Positions 9,008 to 23,491 of a stretch of 24,595 nucleotides of DNA are shown in pieces (positions within the stretch are counted from its first letter, which is position 1; every line of letters begins with the position of its first letter). Source of the DNA: a virus; IMG/VR virus record IMGVR_UViG_3300027906_000147, positions 1-24,595 of that record; one strand, 5' to 3'. The position numbers and the translations under genes were made by a program. The notes beneath the pieces are model-generated. The model saw only the letters and a list, made by a program, of their open reading frames with translations. It did not search any database and was not told where the DNA came from.

Positions 9008-9850
9008 ATGACAACACTTACATTTGACGCATCTGATGGTGCGGATACATCTGCTAGGGAAGCTTCAGAAGCAAATGCTCTTGAGCAGGGAGAAAGAATC
9101 ACTGCTGCTCAAGATGAAGCACAGCAATCAACATATGACGCTGCCAAGGAAGCTGATGCTGAACAGGCACAGTATGCAGGAAAGTATAACTCTGCAGAAG
9201 CCCTTGAGAAGGCCTATCTAGAGCTACAAAAGAAGCTTGGTGATAATACTGAACCGAATGAGCCTGAAGCCACTTCTGAGGAGCCTGTAGAGGGTGCTGA
9301 TGAAGATGTAGTAGAGGAGCAAGACGGTCCATCACCAGCTTTTGTTGCGTTACAGGATGCGTCTACTGAATTTGATTCTGGTGGAGAGTTATCGGCGGAA
9401 ACGTTAGAGAAACTTTCTGCTATGGATAGTAAAACACTGATTGAGAACTGGGTTGATTATGTCAATTCAAATAAGGATTCAACAGAACTACCACAGGCAG
9501 ATGTTGAGAATGTTTATTCATCCGTAGGTGGTCAGAATCAATACAATCAAATGTTGGGATGGGCATCAACAAACCTGCCACCCAATGAGGTTGCTGCATA
9601 TGACGCTGTGATGGCTAGTGGTAACTCTGATGCTGTCTACTGGGCCGCTCAAGGTCTCAAGGCTAAATATGAGGGCTCTATGGGATCAGATGGTAGAGCT
9701 GTTAGTGGATCTAAGGCAGCAAAGCCTGCAAAGGGTTTCAGGAGCCAAGCAGAGCTTGCTAGAGCGATTGGTGATTCTAGATATCGTGATGATCCTGCAT
9801 ACCGTATGGATGTAGAAAATAAACTAGCTGCATCAGGCGACCTGCTATAA
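9008..9850 (+). CDS. Capsid assembly scaffold protein, T7 gp9-like
   Basis: This 280-residue protein is strongly acidic in its first half, with Glu/Asp/Ala-rich stretches (for example EPEATSEEPVEGADEDVVEE). A predicted helical C-terminus contains FRSQAELARAIGDSRYRDDP and ends DVENKLAASGDLL. Scaffolds of T7-like phages have this shape: an acidic flexible N-terminus and a short helical C-terminus that binds the capsid protein. It follows the portal and precedes the capsid gene as in T7. The scaffold builds the procapsid shell and leaves before maturation. The assignment rests on composition, the conserved C-terminal segment and position. Confidence 0.88.
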   Translation: MTTLTFDASDGADTSAREASEANALEQGERITAAQDEAQQSTYDAAKEADAEQAQYAGKYNSAEALEKAYLELQKKLGDNTEPNEPEATSEEPVEGADEDVVEEQDGPSPAFVALQDASTEFDSGGELSAETLEKLSAMDSKTLIENWVDYVNSNKDSTELPQADVENVYSSVGGQNQYNQMLGWASTNLPPNEVAAYDAVMASGNSDAVYWAAQGLKAKYEGSMGSDGRAVSGSKAAKPAKGFRSQAELARAIGDSRYRDDPAYRMDVENKLAASGDLL

Positions 9851-9856
9851 GCATAC

Positions 9857-9924
9857 GTCCGTTCGATCCTTAAGGATTGCAGGAAACCATTTCATGGAAC
9901 GGGGGAATGGCAACAGGAGTCATC
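9857..9924 (+). promoter_or_regulatory. Glutamine-II riboswitch (downstream-peptide RNA motif)
   Basis: This RNA element lies directly after the scaffold stop. Pairings seen: P1 CCGTTC (9859-9864) with GAACGG (9897-9902); P2 GATCC (9865-9869) with GGATT (9874-9878), closed by a TTAA loop and stacked directly on P1; and a pseudoknot CCATT (9887-9891) with AATGG (9906-9910). The unpaired GCAGGAAA between P2 and the pseudoknot is the conserved core of the downstream-peptide motif. This class binds L-glutamine, occurs in marine picocyanobacteria and sits before short reading frames of roughly 17-100 codons. Here the pseudoknot ends five bases before AGGAG, followed by a 32-codon gene. Ligand binding would be expected to mask the ribosome-binding site and lower translation. 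The match is from memory of the family, not a covariance search. Confidence 0.8.
9915..9919 (+). promoter_or_regulatory. Shine-Dalgarno sequence of the downstream peptide
   Basis: AGGAG stands five bases before ATG 9925. It is the best ribosome-binding site I find in the window; most large genes here have none. Its position immediately 3' of the riboswitch pseudoknot makes it the probable expression platform. Confidence 0.75.
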
Positions 9925-10023
9925 ATGACAACCGTTGAAGTGCGAGCACGGGTAAAAGAGCAGAAGCAAGCTGAGAAGCAAGCGAAGCTAGTTTACCGCG
10001 GCGTTGCTTACCTAAAAGGCTGA
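9925..10023 (+). CDS. Riboswitch-controlled short peptide with YRGVAY signature
   Basis: This encodes 32 codons plus TGA. The product starts MTTVEVRARVKEQKQAEKQ, a charged, probably helical segment, and ends AKLVYRGVAYLKG. The YRGVxY motif recalls the small cyanobacterial proteins grouped near DUF4278, so the gene is probably host-derived. Such short genes are the standard targets of the downstream-peptide class of glutamine riboswitch, and this one follows it at the expected spacing with a strong AGGAG site. In cyanobacteria, other glutamine riboswitches control glutamine synthetase inactivating factors, which are also small basic proteins. A regulatory peptide acting on host nitrogen metabolism is therefore a plausible inference, without direct evidence. 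It is in a different frame from the scaffold and shares no sequence with it. Confidence 0.75.
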   Translation: MTTVEVRARVKEQKQAEKQAKLVYRGVAYLKG

Positions 10024-10058
10024 TAGGTGTAGGAGGGGTTCGATTCCCCTCCCAGTCA
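10010..10058 (+). other. tRNA 3'-half-like element (anticodon-arm and T-arm hairpins)
   Basis: GGAGGGG (10032-10038) and CCCCTCC (10046-10052) pair over seven bases around TTCGATT, a textbook tRNA T-loop. Five bases upstream, ACCTA (10010-10014) pairs with TAGGT (10024-10028), giving an anticodon-like arm and a normal 5-base variable region. CCCAGTC plus A (10051-10058) would be the 3' acceptor strand. The loop of the first arm has nine bases instead of seven, no base fits U33, and no GACTGGG partner or D-arm is found upstream, so this is not a working tRNA. It may be a tRNA remnant, such as an attachment-site core, or a stable hairpin of other use. It overlaps the end of the short peptide gene. 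Confidence 0.45.
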
Positions 10059-10215
10059 TTGTGGCGATTGACCACATTAAAAACGATCCAGAGATCTCAG
10101 GGCCGGAAACGATACCCCTATTAATGATTACTGAAAATTTTCTATTTAAGCCTAAGAACAAAGATCTTTAAGAAAAGGCGACCCTATATTTTATTTATTT
10201 TTAATTTTTTAACCA
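10024..10215 (+). other. Noncoding leader of the capsid gene
   Basis: This is 192 bases without a credible gene. After the T-arm-like hairpin comes a second small hairpin, TGTGG (10060-10064) with CCACA (10072-10076). Then come two palindromes, GAGATCTC (10091-10098) and AAAGATCTTT (10160-10169), and an AT-rich tract (10185-10210) running up to the capsid start. No Shine-Dalgarno sequence precedes the capsid ATG. As the most highly made phage protein follows, this region probably carries transcription and RNA-stability signals for the capsid message. Confidence 0.6.
10174..10188 (+). promoter_or_regulatory. Candidate phage RNA polymerase promoter before capsid gene
   Basis: AAAGGCGACCCTATA resembles the reported promoter of cyanophage Syn5 RNA polymerase (ATTGGGCACCCGTAA) at 8 of 15 positions, including GG and ACCC. 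It lies 27 bases before the capsid start, where T7 has its strongest late promoter. I see no second good copy in an intergenic position of this window, so this is weak evidence. Confidence 0.25.
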
Positions 10216-11238
10216 ATGTCTAATATGCTACTGACGCGTCCAGGCGCGTCTAATGGAGGCGCAGATTCACGCGCTCTACTCCTTAAGTTGTTTACTGGTG
10301 AGGTATATGAAGCCTTCACTAATAGTCTGATTGCTAAGAATCTGGTACAAAACCGGACGCTTAAAAACGGCAAAGAAGCACAATTCATCCATACGGGTAC
10401 CATGAGTGCAGGTTTCCATACGCCGGGAACTCCACTGCTTGGTAATGGTACAGGAACTGATGGTGCTCCGAAACAAGCAGAGACCACAATCACAGTTGAC
10501 TCTCTACTCGTATCTCAAGCGTTTATTTATGAACTTGATGAGGTTCTTGCTCATTACTCAATGCGAGGCCCAATCGCCAAGCAAATCGGGCAAAGTTTGG
10601 GAGAATATTACGACCGTCGTATCTTCCGTGTACTAGACCGTGCTGCTGTAGGCAGTGCTGCTGTAACAGGCGAACCTGGCGGCTTTACTGTTGCTCTTGG
10701 TGCTAACAAAGAGTATGACGCTCAAGCTCTATGCGATGGCTTCTTTGAAGCCGCTGCTGTGCTTGACGAAAGGTCCGCTCCCCAGGATGGTAGATGCGCT
10801 GTATTGAGTCCACGACAGTACTACAGTTTGATTTCTAGCGTCGATACTAACATCCTTAACCGGGATATTGGTAACACTCAGGGTAACATGAATACCGGTG
10901 GCGGTCTCTATGAGATTGCAGGCATTAAGATTTACAAATCTAACAACCTACCTTTCCTTGGAAAGTATGGTGTTGCTACCGGACCTGCTATCGAAAATCA
11001 GGACGATAACAATGAACTTAATGTTGATGCATATGGTGATACCACTGACTTTGCTAACAGTTGTGGCTTGATCTTCCACCGTGATGCTGCTGCCTGTGTC
11101 GAGACAATCGGCCCTTCTGTGCAGACAACATCTGGTGATGTAAGTGTTCTTTATCAAGGCGACTTGCTTGTCGGGCGTGTAGCGATGGGCGCTGGTCCCG
11201 TTCGCGTAAGTGTTGCTGGTGCATTCCGTAACACCTGA
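10216..11238 (+). CDS. Major capsid protein, T7 gp10-like
   Basis: This 340-residue protein forms the icosahedral shell (HK97 fold). The N-terminal region has GADSRALLLKLFTGEVYEAF, followed by a segment containing AQFIHTGTMSAGFHTPGTPL, which are characteristic of the capsid proteins of T7-like cyanophages. The middle holds EYYDRRIFRVLDRAA and the C-terminus GDLLVGRVAMGAGPVRVSVA. It is slightly shorter than T7 gp10A. Codon choice looks more even and more GC-rich than in neighbouring genes (frequent GGC, ACC, AAC, CGT), as expected for a very highly expressed gene. It follows the leader and putative promoter and is followed by a strong terminator, giving it its own transcription unit end as in T7. 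Confidence 0.96.
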   Translation: MSNMLLTRPGASNGGADSRALLLKLFTGEVYEAFTNSLIAKNLVQNRTLKNGKEAQFIHTGTMSAGFHTPGTPLLGNGTGTDGAPKQAETTITVDSLLVSQAFIYELDEVLAHYSMRGPIAKQIGQSLGEYYDRRIFRVLDRAAVGSAAVTGEPGGFTVALGANKEYDAQALCDGFFEAAAVLDERSAPQDGRCAVLSPRQYYSLISSVDTNILNRDIGNTQGNMNTGGGLYEIAGIKIYKSNNLPFLGKYGVATGPAIENQDDNNELNVDAYGDTTDFANSCGLIFHRDAAACVETIGPSVQTTSGDVSVLYQGDLLVGRVAMGAGPVRVSVAGAFRNT

Positions 11239-18421: not shown

Positions 18422-21400
18422 ATGCCAATGATTCCACCACCAGACGGGTATGAGGACATTAGTTCTCAACTCGGTCTGGAGGAGGAGGAGGAGGAGAATA
18501 CAGAAGTCTCTTCCCCTTCACCGCAGATTACACAAATAGAACCCACATCCGCAGAAGTATCTTCACAGGAAGTGAAGGGTTACTGGGAAAAAAATACCCG
18601 AGAGCGCACTGACGCACAAGAGTGGGTAGAAAATGAAGTTAATGTACCTTTTCGGGATTGGATTGATGATACCTTTCAAGGTGATCAAAAACTAGAAGAA
18701 GAGATTGCTGCAGAAAGAGAAAGGATTAGAGGGCTATATGCTAATGATCCTTTCATCAATAACCTCAATGAAGCCGCAAGTGGAATTACTGGCGGTGTAG
18801 AGGATTTTGGTATAGGAGTATACAATAAAACAGGGGAAACATTACAGGGTATTGAAAAGGTTGCAAACTGGGGCGAACAGATTGGTCCAGAGTTTGTACC
18901 TATCAAGACACGATTGATCCCTGAAAACTCCACAGGATGGGGAAAGGGACTACGTACACTGTCCAGGTATATGACAGGTGCTTTCCTGTTTAATGCCGCC
19001 ACTGGTGGTGCTTTAACACAAGGACAGGTAGGTCTAAAGCTACAAGCCGGTAGGTTCGCAGAAGGGGCTATTCCAGACTTTGTAGCAGCAAGCCCTGAAG
19101 ATCAAACACTAGCTGGAAGCCTGATAAATGAAACAGTAGGTAGGACACCAATCACTAGATGGTTGATGGCAGATCCAGAGAACCCACAGGTTTATAATGA
19201 TCTACTAACAGCAATTGAAGGTGGTTTATTTAGTAATGCTTTTGGCTTTGTAGGTGATTTTGCACCTGGATTCCTAAGTAAAACAAAAAAAACTATTTCT
19301 AATATATTTGCTGGTAAGAAAGTAGACCCAAAAGATGTTGAGGAAGCACTTAAAGTAACTAATAAATTAAATGAAGTATCAGATGTATTTGAATATGGTG
19401 GAGATCCAAACGAGAAAGTACTGACTGGTTCTAACTGGACAACATATAAAAAGGAACTAAAAGTAACACAAAGCATCCTAGAAACTGATACTACGGTAGA
19501 GGGGCAATTAGTCGATACCATCAATAACCTTACCGGTCAGATCAGTCAATCAGTACAAGAGGGTGGTGGTTTCGCGCAAGAACTAGCAGAAGGACAGGCT
19601 AGAGCTGCAGCAACACCAACAATGGATGATCTTGTTAAGGGGCAGGTATTAAATATCAACCTAACAGGAGCGCAAGTTGATATGTTAAATGCTGCTGGTT
19701 TACCTGAAGGTGTCACCATCACGGGTGGAAGGCGCGTACGTGGACTTAATACAAGCAATGCTGATGAGCTTATTGAAAGCTTACGTAATACAAACGTAGA
19801 AGGTAAGGCTAGAGCTAAGGTACAAGCCCACCTTCTAAACCGTCTAGAAGGGATTGAGAGACCTGCTCCAATACCATCTGATGCAGTCACAAGAGAATCA
19901 ATTACAGAGGGCTTAGAGGCCACTATAGGGGCCAGAGAAAGCACTTATCAAAGAGCTGTTCAGCTACGTGTAGAGAAGACTAAGTTACAAGAACAACTAG
20001 CAAAAAAACAACTACAGATACAACAAGCAAAAGTAGAGATTGAAGCCTACTATGCAAAGTTAAGTGGACACACAGGACAGTTTAGAGCTGACTATGTACC
20101 AGTTAAGATGGATAGAAGCAATGTAAGTTCTATTGTTAAAGAGAACTATGCACCTGGCTTTGGTGGACAACCTGGCTTAGATCTTTATATCGAAGATGGT
20201 CGTGCCTTCACACCTTATAACGGACAGGTTAAGCACATTGATTTTGAACCTGGCTACGGATGGCATTGCACTGTTGAGTGTATAGATCCTAAGACAGGCG
20301 ACTCCTTTGATATGGTCATTGCTCACCTTGAAGAAGGTAGTATGAAGGTGGAAGTTGGTGATCTAGTTGCACCTGGACAAGAAATAGCCACTCAAGGTGG
20401 TACAGGTAACGTTAGATCTGCTGACGGAACTATCACATCCTATGACTTCTTTGAGGTAAGACCTGCAGGAACAAAGGATATGACGCCATATAAAAGATAT
20501 GGTGGTCTAGTAAATGAACTTGAACTAGCTATAAATAAAGAAGGTGGTATTGTTCCAACACCTACAGCTAAAGCGGCTTCAGAACTGGTACAACCAGAAT
20601 TAGTAGAGCAAGCAATCAAGCAAGCTGATGAGGTAATTGAAACTACAACTAGAAAAGCTGCTACAGAAGAAGGTCATGAGGTAGCTTCACTAGTAAATGT
20701 AAAACCAAAACCTTCTAATTCACAGTTTCCTGAAGTTGATTACGCTCCCAAACCGCGTGATCCTGATAGTTTACAAGTATCTCATGCTGAGCTATCAGAT
20801 GCAGATATCGCAATGATTGGTATTGCAAAAGATAAAGATAATCCAGTCAAAAAGATTTATAAGAAATTAGAGCGACAAGCTAAATGGGACTTTGCAAATG
20901 CTACTGAGATATACCACTCTAAGGAAGCGCAGGAGTGGGCTGAAGAGTTTCTTGGTGTTAAGTTAGAGGATCTAGAAGATTTAGCTAGTCGTATTGATAT
21001 ATCAAAATCTGCTTCTAATGGATCAGAATGGCAATTCTCAGCTAGAGGCTTTAGGGCAAATACAATCGCCTTACAGCAGCTAACTGATGAGGTACATAAA
21101 TTTGCCCAGATGGCTGATTATCAAATCAGAGATGGGTCACCATTAGCTGGTCAATCAAGGGAAGCCGTTATTGATAGGTTGGAAGCACTTTCTATCTTAC
21201 GAATGGAGCATAAGCAGACTGTATCTGGTGCTCTAAGACTACATGGTGACTTTAAAGATATTGCTAATGTAACATCAAATGCTATCAGCTTGGATGAATA
21301 TAAGACTATAGTAGAGAATTTAGCTGAGGATAAGGCATGGACTCAACAGCTCCGGCAAAGCATCGATAGGTTGAAGGAAGGTCTCAAGGTAGGCCACCCG

Positions 21401-23491
21401 GCAACAACAAAGAGATTAGGTGATGTAATCAGAATCCTCGCAATTAATGAGGATATTGGCCCAATGGCACCATTGAAGATGCTACAAAGCATCACATCTG
21501 CTTATCTCAAGGATTTTGATGGTGCCTTTATCATTGGGCTTTTGTCGTCACCTAAAACACACGCTGTAAACACAACGGCTGGTTTAGTAAGGACATATGG
21601 AAACTCATGGTTAATGCAATTGGGTGGCTTTATGCCGGGTCCAGGTGGAAAGAATGAGATCATCAGCGGTGCTGCAGAAATTGCGGCAATGAATGAAACA
21701 CTAGCTGAAGTAAGAAATCTTTTCCCTAAGATCTGGCGACAAAGCAAAGCACTATCCAATAGTTCTAAAGTAAGTAGTATATGGGATGAAACACTAGAGA
21801 AGAATATGGAGATGGTCAGACAAATAGCAGATAAGTCTGACAACCAAGTTTTTAGATCAACAGTATATGGAGCATTCCTATTAAAAAACGTACTTTCATC
21901 AAGACCTTTCTCATATGTAACTGATTTACTCCAATCAGAAGATCAACTGATTAAAGTATTTTCCGGCAGACAGATAGCCACTAGGAAGGCATATGAAGAT
22001 GCGTTTACTATCTTTGGTAGTAGACCTAACACACCAAAAGCTCAACAAGAATTTGCTGAGATGGTAGTTAGGGAAAAAGAAAAGTACTTAAAAGAGATAT
22101 TTGATGAAGATGGTATTACATTCTTAGAAACACCTTTAGGAATGGAAGCTGCTAAGCATGGAAGAATGATGACTTTCCAGGTATCTACTGCTGAAATGGA
22201 TCAGTTCACGAAAGTGGTACATACCGCATCACAATTTCCGGGCATGAAAATAGGAGGCTTGACTTTCATTAAAACACCATCTGAGATTCTTAAAGCTGCT
22301 GCCGGGGTTGTTCCTGTTGCTGGAGAACTTAACTGGGTGGTTCCAATGATGCAGGGTAGGTGGTCAAAACTTACAGCAGCAGAGAAAGCACAAGTAAATG
22401 GCACGGCTTGGTTATCAAGATTACTCCTTACACCAGTATTAATGTTAGGTGCAATGGGTCATGATTCACAAATAAGAGTGACAGGTGCTGGCCCATTAAA
22501 TTACAGAGAATTTCAGAAGTGGCAAGCTGCTGGTAATGACAGGTTCAGGGCTTATATCGGACCAGTAGTTATTGACTACAGCAGGATGGACCCCTTAACA
22601 ACACCTGTTGGACTTATTGCTGATATTGGTTCATTGTATATGGGTGATATGAGTGCAAAAAGCAGCAACGCTATAGATGCATCAATATGGGGTTTATCAT
22701 TTGCTAATTTCTTCAACAAATCTTGGACTGAGCAATTAGCACAAATCACAGATACAATTTCAGATTGGGAGAATGCAGCCGGTAGGACTAGATATCTCAA
22801 CAACATAGGCAGGGGTCTAATGCCTATGGGTTCATTACTAAGAACAGGTAGCGGTATGATGGACCCATTCATCAGGGAAACCCGTCAGAACATTGAACCT
22901 GATTGGAGACGACGCATCTTAAATAATGAATTAGGTTATCAAGCTGATTATCCTGTTAGAGTTGATCCTGTCAATGGCAAGGAACTTACAGATGTAAATA
23001 TCGAAGGGTTACCTGGCTTTATAATCAATGCAATGAATAGGGCCGGTGCATTTGGTGGATTAGCTTTCTCAAAGAATAGGTTTAGACCTATCCATAAGAA
23101 ACTATGGAATGCTGATTACCATATCGCCAATAGAACTAAAGCTTTAGAAGGAACAACGTTCAACAATGAAGAGATGGTTGAATTCATCAGACAAAGAGCT
23201 TCTGGTGGTGATATGGAGAAGGAATTACTAGAGTTCTTTAATAGTAGTGGTTTCGCAGCTCATGAAAAACTTTACGACGGAGAGATTAAGGCTGGTAAGT
23301 TACCACAAGAGACGATACTACACAAAACTCTAGATATGATTGTCAATAAATATTCTGATAAGGCTAAAGCCTATATGCGTTATGGCGAATCAACAGGCGC
23401 GAGATCTTGGCAAAGACGGCACCAAAAAAGTATGGAAGAAAAAAACAAACCTAAGAGTGATGCAATAAAAGAGATAAATCTACTCTACTGA
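18422..23491 (+). CDS. Internal virion protein D, T7 gp16-like, with degenerate M23/LytM domain
   Basis: This is the largest gene: 1689 residues (T7 gp16 has 1318). After an acidic N-terminus with six consecutive Glu (20-25) comes a mostly helical chain. Around residues 560-700 lies an M23 (LytM) peptidase-like beta domain: GGQPGLDLYIEDGRAFTPYN (581-600), a GYGWHCTVE strand, VIAHLEEGS with H635, VEVGDLVAPGQEIATQGGTG, and SYDFFEVRP (673-681). In active enzymes the first segment is HxGxD and the last HxHxE. Here Gln583 replaces the first His, and Tyr674 and Phe676 replace the last two, so zinc binding and catalysis are probably lost. The remaining C-terminal 900 residues resemble cyanophage gp16 only by position and helical nature. 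The protein should form the inner-membrane part of the ejection channel. Confidence 0.85.
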   Translation: MPMIPPPDGYEDISSQLGLEEEEEENTEVSSPSPQITQIEPTSAEVSSQEVKGYWEKNTRERTDAQEWVENEVNVPFRDWIDDTFQGDQKLEEEIAAERERIRGLYANDPFINNLNEAASGITGGVEDFGIGVYNKTGETLQGIEKVANWGEQIGPEFVPIKTRLIPENSTGWGKGLRTLSRYMTGAFLFNAATGGALTQGQVGLKLQAGRFAEGAIPDFVAASPEDQTLAGSLINETVGRTPITRWLMADPENPQVYNDLLTAIEGGLFSNAFGFVGDFAPGFLSKTKKTISNIFAGKKVDPKDVEEALKVTNKLNEVSDVFEYGGDPNEKVLTGSNWTTYKKELKVTQSILETDTTVEGQLVDTINNLTGQISQSVQEGGGFAQELAEGQARAAATPTMDDLVKGQVLNINLTGAQVDMLNAAGLPEGVTITGGRRVRGLNTSNADELIESLRNTNVEGKARAKVQAHLLNRLEGIERPAPIPSDAVTRESITEGLEATIGARESTYQRAVQLRVEKTKLQEQLAKKQLQIQQAKVEIEAYYAKLSGHTGQFRADYVPVKMDRSNVSSIVKENYAPGFGGQPGLDLYIEDGRAFTPYNGQVKHIDFEPGYGWHCTVECIDPKTGDSFDMVIAHLEEGSMKVEVGDLVAPGQEIATQGGTGNVRSADGTITSYDFFEVRPAGTKDMTPYKRYGGLVNELELAINKEGGIVPTPTAKAASELVQPELVEQAIKQADEVIETTTRKAATEEGHEVASLVNVKPKPSNSQFPEVDYAPKPRDPDSLQVSHAELSDADIAMIGIAKDKDNPVKKIYKKLERQAKWDFANATEIYHSKEAQEWAEEFLGVKLEDLEDLASRIDISKSASNGSEWQFSARGFRANTIALQQLTDEVHKFAQMADYQIRDGSPLAGQSREAVIDRLEALSILRMEHKQTVSGALRLHGDFKDIANVTSNAISLDEYKTIVENLAEDKAWTQQLRQSIDRLKEGLKVGHPATTKRLGDVIRILAINEDIGPMAPLKMLQSITSAYLKDFDGAFIIGLLSSPKTHAVNTTAGLVRTYGNSWLMQLGGFMPGPGGKNEIISGAAEIAAMNETLAEVRNLFPKIWRQSKALSNSSKVSSIWDETLEKNMEMVRQIADKSDNQVFRSTVYGAFLLKNVLSSRPFSYVTDLLQSEDQLIKVFSGRQIATRKAYEDAFTIFGSRPNTPKAQQEFAEMVVREKEKYLKEIFDEDGITFLETPLGMEAAKHGRMMTFQVSTAEMDQFTKVVHTASQFPGMKIGGLTFIKTPSEILKAAAGVVPVAGELNWVVPMMQGRWSKLTAAEKAQVNGTAWLSRLLLTPVLMLGAMGHDSQIRVTGAGPLNYREFQKWQAAGNDRFRAYIGPVVIDYSRMDPLTTPVGLIADIGSLYMGDMSAKSSNAIDASIWGLSFANFFNKSWTEQLAQITDTISDWENAAGRTRYLNNIGRGLMPMGSLLRTGSGMMDPFIRETRQNIEPDWRRRILNNELGYQADYPVRVDPVNGKELTDVNIEGLPGFIINAMNRAGAFGGLAFSKNRFRPIHKKLWNADYHIANRTKALEGTTFNNEEMVEFIRQRASGGDMEKELLEFFNSSGFAAHEKLYDGEIKAGKLPQETILHKTLDMIVNKYSDKAKAYMRYGESTGARSWQRRHQKSMEEKNKPKSDAIKEINLLY

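Follow-up and report, generated by a model that had tools for sequence, protein, structure and literature searches.

A fragment of a T7-like cyanophage genome carries, in the gap between its scaffold and major capsid genes, a glutamine-II riboswitch aptamer that is followed by a short coding ORF, and many T7-like cyanophages have this arrangement before their capsid gene. We regard it as highly probable that the RNA is a phage-borne glutamine-II riboswitch, which would bind its ligand also in the copy described here, and that it controls the translation of the small phage peptide.

The aptamer and the peptide gene behind it

The stretch analysed is IMG/VR record IMGVR_UViG_3300027906_000147 (24,595 nt), referred to as the window in the following. 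Its capsid protein shares 82% identity with the one from Synechococcus phage S-CBP2. The elements that concern the riboswitch are:

9008-9850, plus strand: scaffold / capsid assembly gene (PF05396, T7 capsid-assembly protein, Pfam E 5e-10)
9857-9911, plus strand: glutamine-II riboswitch aptamer, whole Rfam match (RF01704, 43.2 bits against a gathering score of 33, E 1.3e-7)
9860-9864, plus strand: 5' strand CGUUC of the pseudoknot (PK; C1-C5 in the crystal numbering of PMC6698751), partner 9897-9901 (Rfam alignment)
9866-9877, plus strand: P1 hairpin 9866-9869/9874-9877 (4 bp) with loop UUAA; G9865 stands opposite U9878
9879-9881, plus strand: linking strand GCA (G18, C19, A20), from comparison of the sequence with the crystal contacts
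9887-9910, plus strand: P2 helix 9887-9893/9904-9910 (7 bp), enclosing the 3' strand GAACG of the pseudoknot (9897-9901)
9915-9919, plus strand: Shine-Dalgarno-like AGGAG, 4 nt after P2 (from the sequence)
9925-10023, plus strand: phage YRG peptide ORF of 32 codons, MTTVEVRARVKEQKQAEKQAKLVYRGVAYLKG, C-terminus YRGVAYLKG, ATG at 9925-9927 (PHROG 5049, L010 relative, codon-position variation)
10216-11238, plus strand: major capsid gene, Gp10A-like (PF21703, Pfam E 2.7e-59)

The Pfam matches on both flanks confirm what had been proposed from the sequence, that this is a T7-like phage and that the RNA is located between its scaffold and capsid genes. Neither a sigma-70 promoter nor a terminator-like site was found in this gap. 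Elsewhere in the window, an endonuclease VII-like gene (2101-2532) overlaps the end of the DNA polymerase gene, and an internal virion protein of 1689 aa (18422-23491) shows a weak M23 peptidase match below the Pfam cut-off.

The original prediction of a glutamine-II (Downstream-peptide) RNA was borne out by the covariance model, since RF01704 was the sole match above its gathering score when the whole window was compared with 4227 Rfam families by cmscan. The glutamine-I family (glnA, RF01739) was absent from all window matches up to E 10. All three predicted pairings are present in the Rfam alignment and only their labels need to be exchanged: the helix named P1 (9859-9864/9897-9902) is the pseudoknot (9860-9864/9897-9901), the helix named P2 (9865-9869/9874-9878) is P1 together with the opposed G9865 and U9878, and the proposed pseudoknot (9887-9891/9906-9910) is part of the longer P2.

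All five PK pairs are formed in the window (C9860-G9901, G9861-C9900, U9862-A9899, U9863-A9898 and C9864-G9897), and all nucleotides that contact glutamine are kept, namely C1 (C9860), G18 (G9879), C39 (C9900) and G40 (G9901). In the crystal structure, G18 touches glutamine and C19 pairs with G41, position 9902 in the window (PMC6698751); this long-range pair is kept as C9880/G9902 and A33:G42 as A9894/G9903. The sole departure from the usual core concerns the A6/C17 site beside the pseudoknot, where 77 of the 78 distinct phage aptamers have A and C and the window has G9865/U9878. In the window both bases shifted together, and their identity suggests a possible G:U wobble. A6 and C17 are coplanar in the crystal, are not joined by a hydrogen bond and make no contact with the ligand (PMC6698751). 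The affinity for L-glutamine reported for the crystal construct is 190 uM.

The folding energy of the aptamer is unremarkable (z -1.33) and thus uninformative, hence the case for it rests on the profile and on comparative data. In the 78 distinct phage aptamers, P2 positions are paired in 81-100%, compared to 49-51% if the partner is slid by one base. Changes on both sides occur at seven of the eight counted P2 positions, for example in 35 of the 78 aptamers at one of them, so the covariation check across phages that had been suggested showed P2 pairing to be maintained by compensatory changes. P1 covaries as well. The pseudoknot hardly varies, in part as a result of the search pattern, which demanded it, and the invariance of PK and core among the IMG/VR aptamers therefore proves nothing; a single compensated PK change (C5:G36 to U:A) was found in SS120-1, which came from the named phages.

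The short gene expected behind an AGGAG site was likewise found. It begins 13 nt past the Rfam match, and a short ORF of 17-100 aa directly downstream is a feature of the glutamine-II class (PMC2864571). Across 66 distinct cores of the phage peptide, variation is greatest at the third codon position (mean entropy 1.39 vs 0.73 and 0.73), as expected of a translated gene, and we therefore read the phage peptide as coding. The six residues from YRG onward are YRGVAY, YRGVSY, YRGVKY, YRGITY and similar. The match to PHROG 5049 is weak for the window peptide (E 0.0017) and reaches 4e-5 for its near relative at the same location in locus L010 and 9e-17 for a form with two YRG motifs. The window peptide scores 18.3 bits with Pfam DUF4278 (PF14105), below the gathering score of 25.3; a link to this family is nevertheless likely, because the longer two-YRG phage peptide reaches 28.2 bits, while the 32-mer itself is not a filed member. 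PirA was considered as a relative and not adopted; marine picocyanobacteria are said to lack it, and its paper is silent on DUF4278.

Among the matches listed, a YRG ORF stands behind 66 of 70 podovirus aptamers, compared to 113 of 5321 positions drawn at random from these loci. Of the remaining four, three have lost the downstream sequence at a contig end, and the fourth (L190) has a shorter YRG ORF. The original prediction had likened the whole arrangement to the downstream-peptide switch of picocyanobacteria, which is correct for the aptamer class and not for the peptide: YRG occurs in just 3 of 80 picocyanobacterial genome matches as against nearly all podovirus ones, and the usual host glutamine-II peptides read MNNLLQIREKIKRANRLYEAQLL... 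Hence, the phage is not simply copying a host gene. Hybrid peptides with a host-like N-terminus and YRGVAY exist in some other viral loci (L127, L151, L152).

Distribution of the cassette and its possible decay

At least 120 stretches in IMG/VR matched a class pattern that fixed PK and core, several of these loci being fragments, and approximately 70 of the 120 listed loci bear T7-like cyanophage structural genes. In all 60 of the listed loci that contain both parts, the aptamer stands before the capsid gene and shares its strand, the distance being 245-1470 nt (median 320). The view that riboswitches are rare in phage morphogenesis operons is thus not upheld for this cassette, which precedes the capsid gene in many T7-like cyanophages. 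Furthermore, 12 of 21 named T7-like cyanophages have an RF01704 match above the cut-off, among them P-SSP7, P-SSP2, P-GSP1, NATL2A-133, 9515-10a and S-RIP2, and S-SBP1 shows a truncated match. BLAST with one aptamer-plus-start sequence found P-SSP7, P-SSP2, P-SSP3, P-GSP1, NATL2A-133, 9515-10a, S-TIP37 and others. The annotation beneath these matches is 'none' nearly throughout and 'hypothetical protein' in S-TIP28 and S-SBP1, and one record is wholly unannotated. The DNA of the window cassette itself gave chance matches alone with named phages, whereas the related P-SSP7-type query did succeed.

In the window's own clade the aptamer is patchy. Only four of the 80 nearest capsid loci carry one (L002, which is near identical, L010, L054 and L078), and its lack above the cut-off in the other 76 indicates that it is dispensable. 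In two of the four (L054 ~217-400 and L078 ~1406-1590) the small ORF behind the aptamer is another one (MSQILIAWIMQQKQARNIKQKEATVYYKR) and has no YRG.

Such patchiness would also be expected if the window aptamer were a decaying relic that has lost glutamine sensing. Its score below that of L010 (43.2 vs 53 bits) and the odd G9865/U9878 point in the same direction, and decay does happen: S-SBP1 (L226 ~2135-2175) is a natural case in which the 5' pseudoknot strand is gone and the YRG peptide gene is retained. In the window, however, the contact nucleotides and the five PK, four P1 and seven P2 pairs are all intact, G9865 and U9878 changed jointly into a potential wobble, and the Shine-Dalgarno sequence as well as the peptide are preserved. 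We consider a relic unlikely and keep to a working riboswitch. The best reading of the distribution is that aptamer and peptide form a mobile regulatory cassette, whose two parts come and go together at the site between scaffold gene and capsid leader.

The scaffold-capsid gap also appears as a cargo site whose content varies by phage, with a LAGLIDADG-like ORF, RlpA-like genes, psbA plus hli, or a tRNA (L070, L076, L214, L215, L206, L217). P-SSP7 itself has, in this order, gp9 - hliP - psbA - small ORF - riboswitch and peptide - gp10. Glutamine-II aptamers were observed in other settings as well. Tandem or near-tandem copies occur in the viral contigs L091, L106, L120, L143, L150, L164 and L197, several of them preceding two-YRG peptides. 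In another phage group (L101, L122, L123, L158, L160, L161, L176), with a DNA polymerase ~41-46% identical to that of the window, the aptamer lies near the DNA polymerase gene and mostly before a longer YRG peptide. Finally, S-CBP3 (L216 2106-2151) contains a glutamine-riboswitch-like RNA before a YRG-type peptide, in which C19:G41 is replaced by G:C and which falls below both Rfam cut-offs. It is perhaps an intermediate between glutamine-I and glutamine-II; with the glutamine-I model it scores 21.7 bits against a cut-off of 35, a value in the range that true glutamine-II RNAs reach there (19-22).

Hairpin and leader RNA before the capsid gene

Between the peptide and the capsid gene lie two further RNA elements:

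10018-10057, plus strand: tRNA-like minihelix with a T-arm-like hairpin (10032-10038/10046-10052, loop UUCGAUU) and a possible acceptor-like stem (10018-10022/10053-10057, recognised by eye)
10061-10119, plus strand: capsid-leader RNA of type II with P1 (10061-10064/10072-10075), AUUAAAAAC, a palindrome (10091-10098) and P3 (10099-10102/10116-10119; bulged C, GAAA loop, AUAC)

The minihelix stands between peptide gene and capsid leader, and its acceptor-like stem overlaps the peptide stop codon. Among 114 distinct leaders, the T-arm-like hairpin is present in 50 (loops such as UUCGAUU and UGCAAAU) and a GCACCUC...GUCGGAC hairpin in 46; several of the remaining 18 resemble variants of one or the other. 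ARAGORN found no tRNA genes in the window, and a full tRNA gene occupies the minihelix site in L014 and NATL1A-7.

The leader exists in two module orders, P3 - palindrome - P1 in type I (P-SSP7-type) and P1 - NUUAAAAAC - palindrome - P3 in type II (window, S-CBP2). From the shared modules, we suggest that both may belong to one permuted family. A type I model built from 17 sequences gave 78 matches in 94 sources, located just upstream of the capsid gene wherever both positions are known. In 66 distinct type I sequences, 11 of 13 pairs changed on both sides, with 123 such cells compared to 33 +/- 4 in shuffles, a count that leans towards the structure because the alignment was fitted to it; 95% of the cells are paired, compared to 29-52% when slid. 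Type II, in which P1 and P3 covary, is present in 64 of 82 loci according to a search that itself demanded pairing, so that the evidence lies in the diversity of the pairs, with P1 as GAGG/CCUC, GUGG/CCAC or AAGG/CCUU. Moreover, 34 leaders contain 51 perfect palindromes of at least 10 nt, compared to 5.5 +/- 2.5 in shuffles and 5 in a control region. In the window leader, palindromes are found at 10091-10098 and 10160-10169, and most of the 33 other leaders have them at similar places. Their sequences differ between phages, which suggests self-pairing of the RNA over a single protein site; kissing-loop dimerisation is possible, and so is a role at the DNA level.

The leader matched no Rfam family at the thresholds used, and its folding energy is uninformative (z -1.19). 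A resemblance to pistol ribozymes noticed by eye had no counterpart in an Rfam pistol match, and an assignment as DUF805 RNA was rejected at 14.4 bits and E 6. The leader appears to be undescribed, as judged from the openly accessible literature, and it may be more novel than the glutamine switch.

The constant position of the aptamer, which precedes the capsid gene in the same orientation in 60 of 60 listed loci, raises the alternative that it governs the capsid gene, or all of the late operon downstream, and not the peptide. We hold this to be quite improbable, because a complete peptide ORF starts a few tens of bases past the aptamer while the capsid start is 245-1470 nt off, the separate hairpin and the separate conserved leader intervene between peptide and capsid gene, no terminator-like site for transcriptional control was found, and the leader is retained in phages without the riboswitch. 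The capsid gene itself is probably outside glutamine control. With so much structured RNA crowded into this stretch, the RNA might also have a general role in the structure or processing of the late transcript and look like an aptamer without being one. This explanation has very little probability in our view, since conservation extends to the very nucleotides that bind the ligand, the aptamers are followed by the same peptide family and the same class is present in picocyanobacterial genomes. Translational control of the peptide hence stays our preferred reading of the aptamer.

For the stretch between peptide and capsid gene, we propose a tentative model to which we give somewhat less than even chances. 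It would represent a new RNA family of T7-like cyanophages, in which the minihelix or GCACCUC hairpin marks a cut of the late mRNA, and a permutable leader (P1, palindromic P2, P3 with a C/AUAC internal loop), whose loops are self-complementary, serves to cap, stabilise or dimerise the mRNA of the capsid gene. Directly upstream, the glutamine switch would be plugged in as a cassette, which would place nitrogen-sensing and capsid-expression modules side by side.

Proposed working and comparison with known systems

In the proposed mechanism, plentiful L-glutamine in the infected cell would bind to the pseudoknot and stabilise the PK/P2 fold 4 nt upstream of AGGAG, and this would increase translation of the 32-codon YRG peptide, i.e. 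the RNA would act as an ON switch. Glutamine-II in cyanobacteria was shown by others to be an ON switch that is probably translational (PMC6698751), and a Shine-Dalgarno sequence beginning 4 nt after P2 fits translational control. A comparison of apo and holo states by simple folds revealed no release of the Shine-Dalgarno sequence and no difference in its accessibility in the window, and the expression platform is therefore one that we infer. T7-like cyanophages probably sense the nitrogen state of the host in this way, presumably late in infection. The peptide is probably directed at the nitrogen or amino-acid metabolism of the host; by analogy with the glutamine-controlled glutamine synthetase (GS) inhibitor IF17 (PMC7760959), it may modulate host nitrogen metabolism at high glutamine levels.

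Laboratory work on T7-like cyanophages uses P-SSP7 as its standard model, and the capsid-adjacent glutamine riboswitch of this phage is unannotated in the records searched. If the switch works, T7-like cyanophages read host nitrogen status via an RNA and respond with a peptide of their own, and phage nitrogen control could be put to the test in culture. The capsid-leader RNA would add a second, apparently undescribed control element for the major structural protein. No description of the capsid-adjacent cassette of T7-like phages was found in the openly accessible literature searched. One phage has already been noted for a Downstream-peptide motif in secondary sources.

The glutamine-II class as such is already known, and the window aptamer joins it. 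With the glutamine-II RNAs (RF01704) of Prochlorococcus and Synechococcus, including Yfr6, it shares the aptamer class, the short ORF behind and the ligand-contact nucleotides (PMC2864571, PMC2518516); unlike the host RNAs, the phage copy sits in a structural operon and its peptide is of the YRG type. Glutamine riboswitches have been reported from other marine phages, i.e. T4-like cyanophages and Melnitz, Mosig and AG-345-P14 (PMC9602691, PMC9004378, PMC9964418). The riboswitch of Melnitz was termed glnA-like and is located at ssrA, whereas that of the window is glutamine-II and lies beside the capsid gene. Marine picocyanobacteria are said to be without IF proteins (PMC8092223). In outline, the phage cassette is alike to the cyanobacterial gifB glutamine riboswitch, which controls the GS inhibitor IF17 and through which glutamine boosts a small regulatory protein (PMC6698751, PMC7760959).
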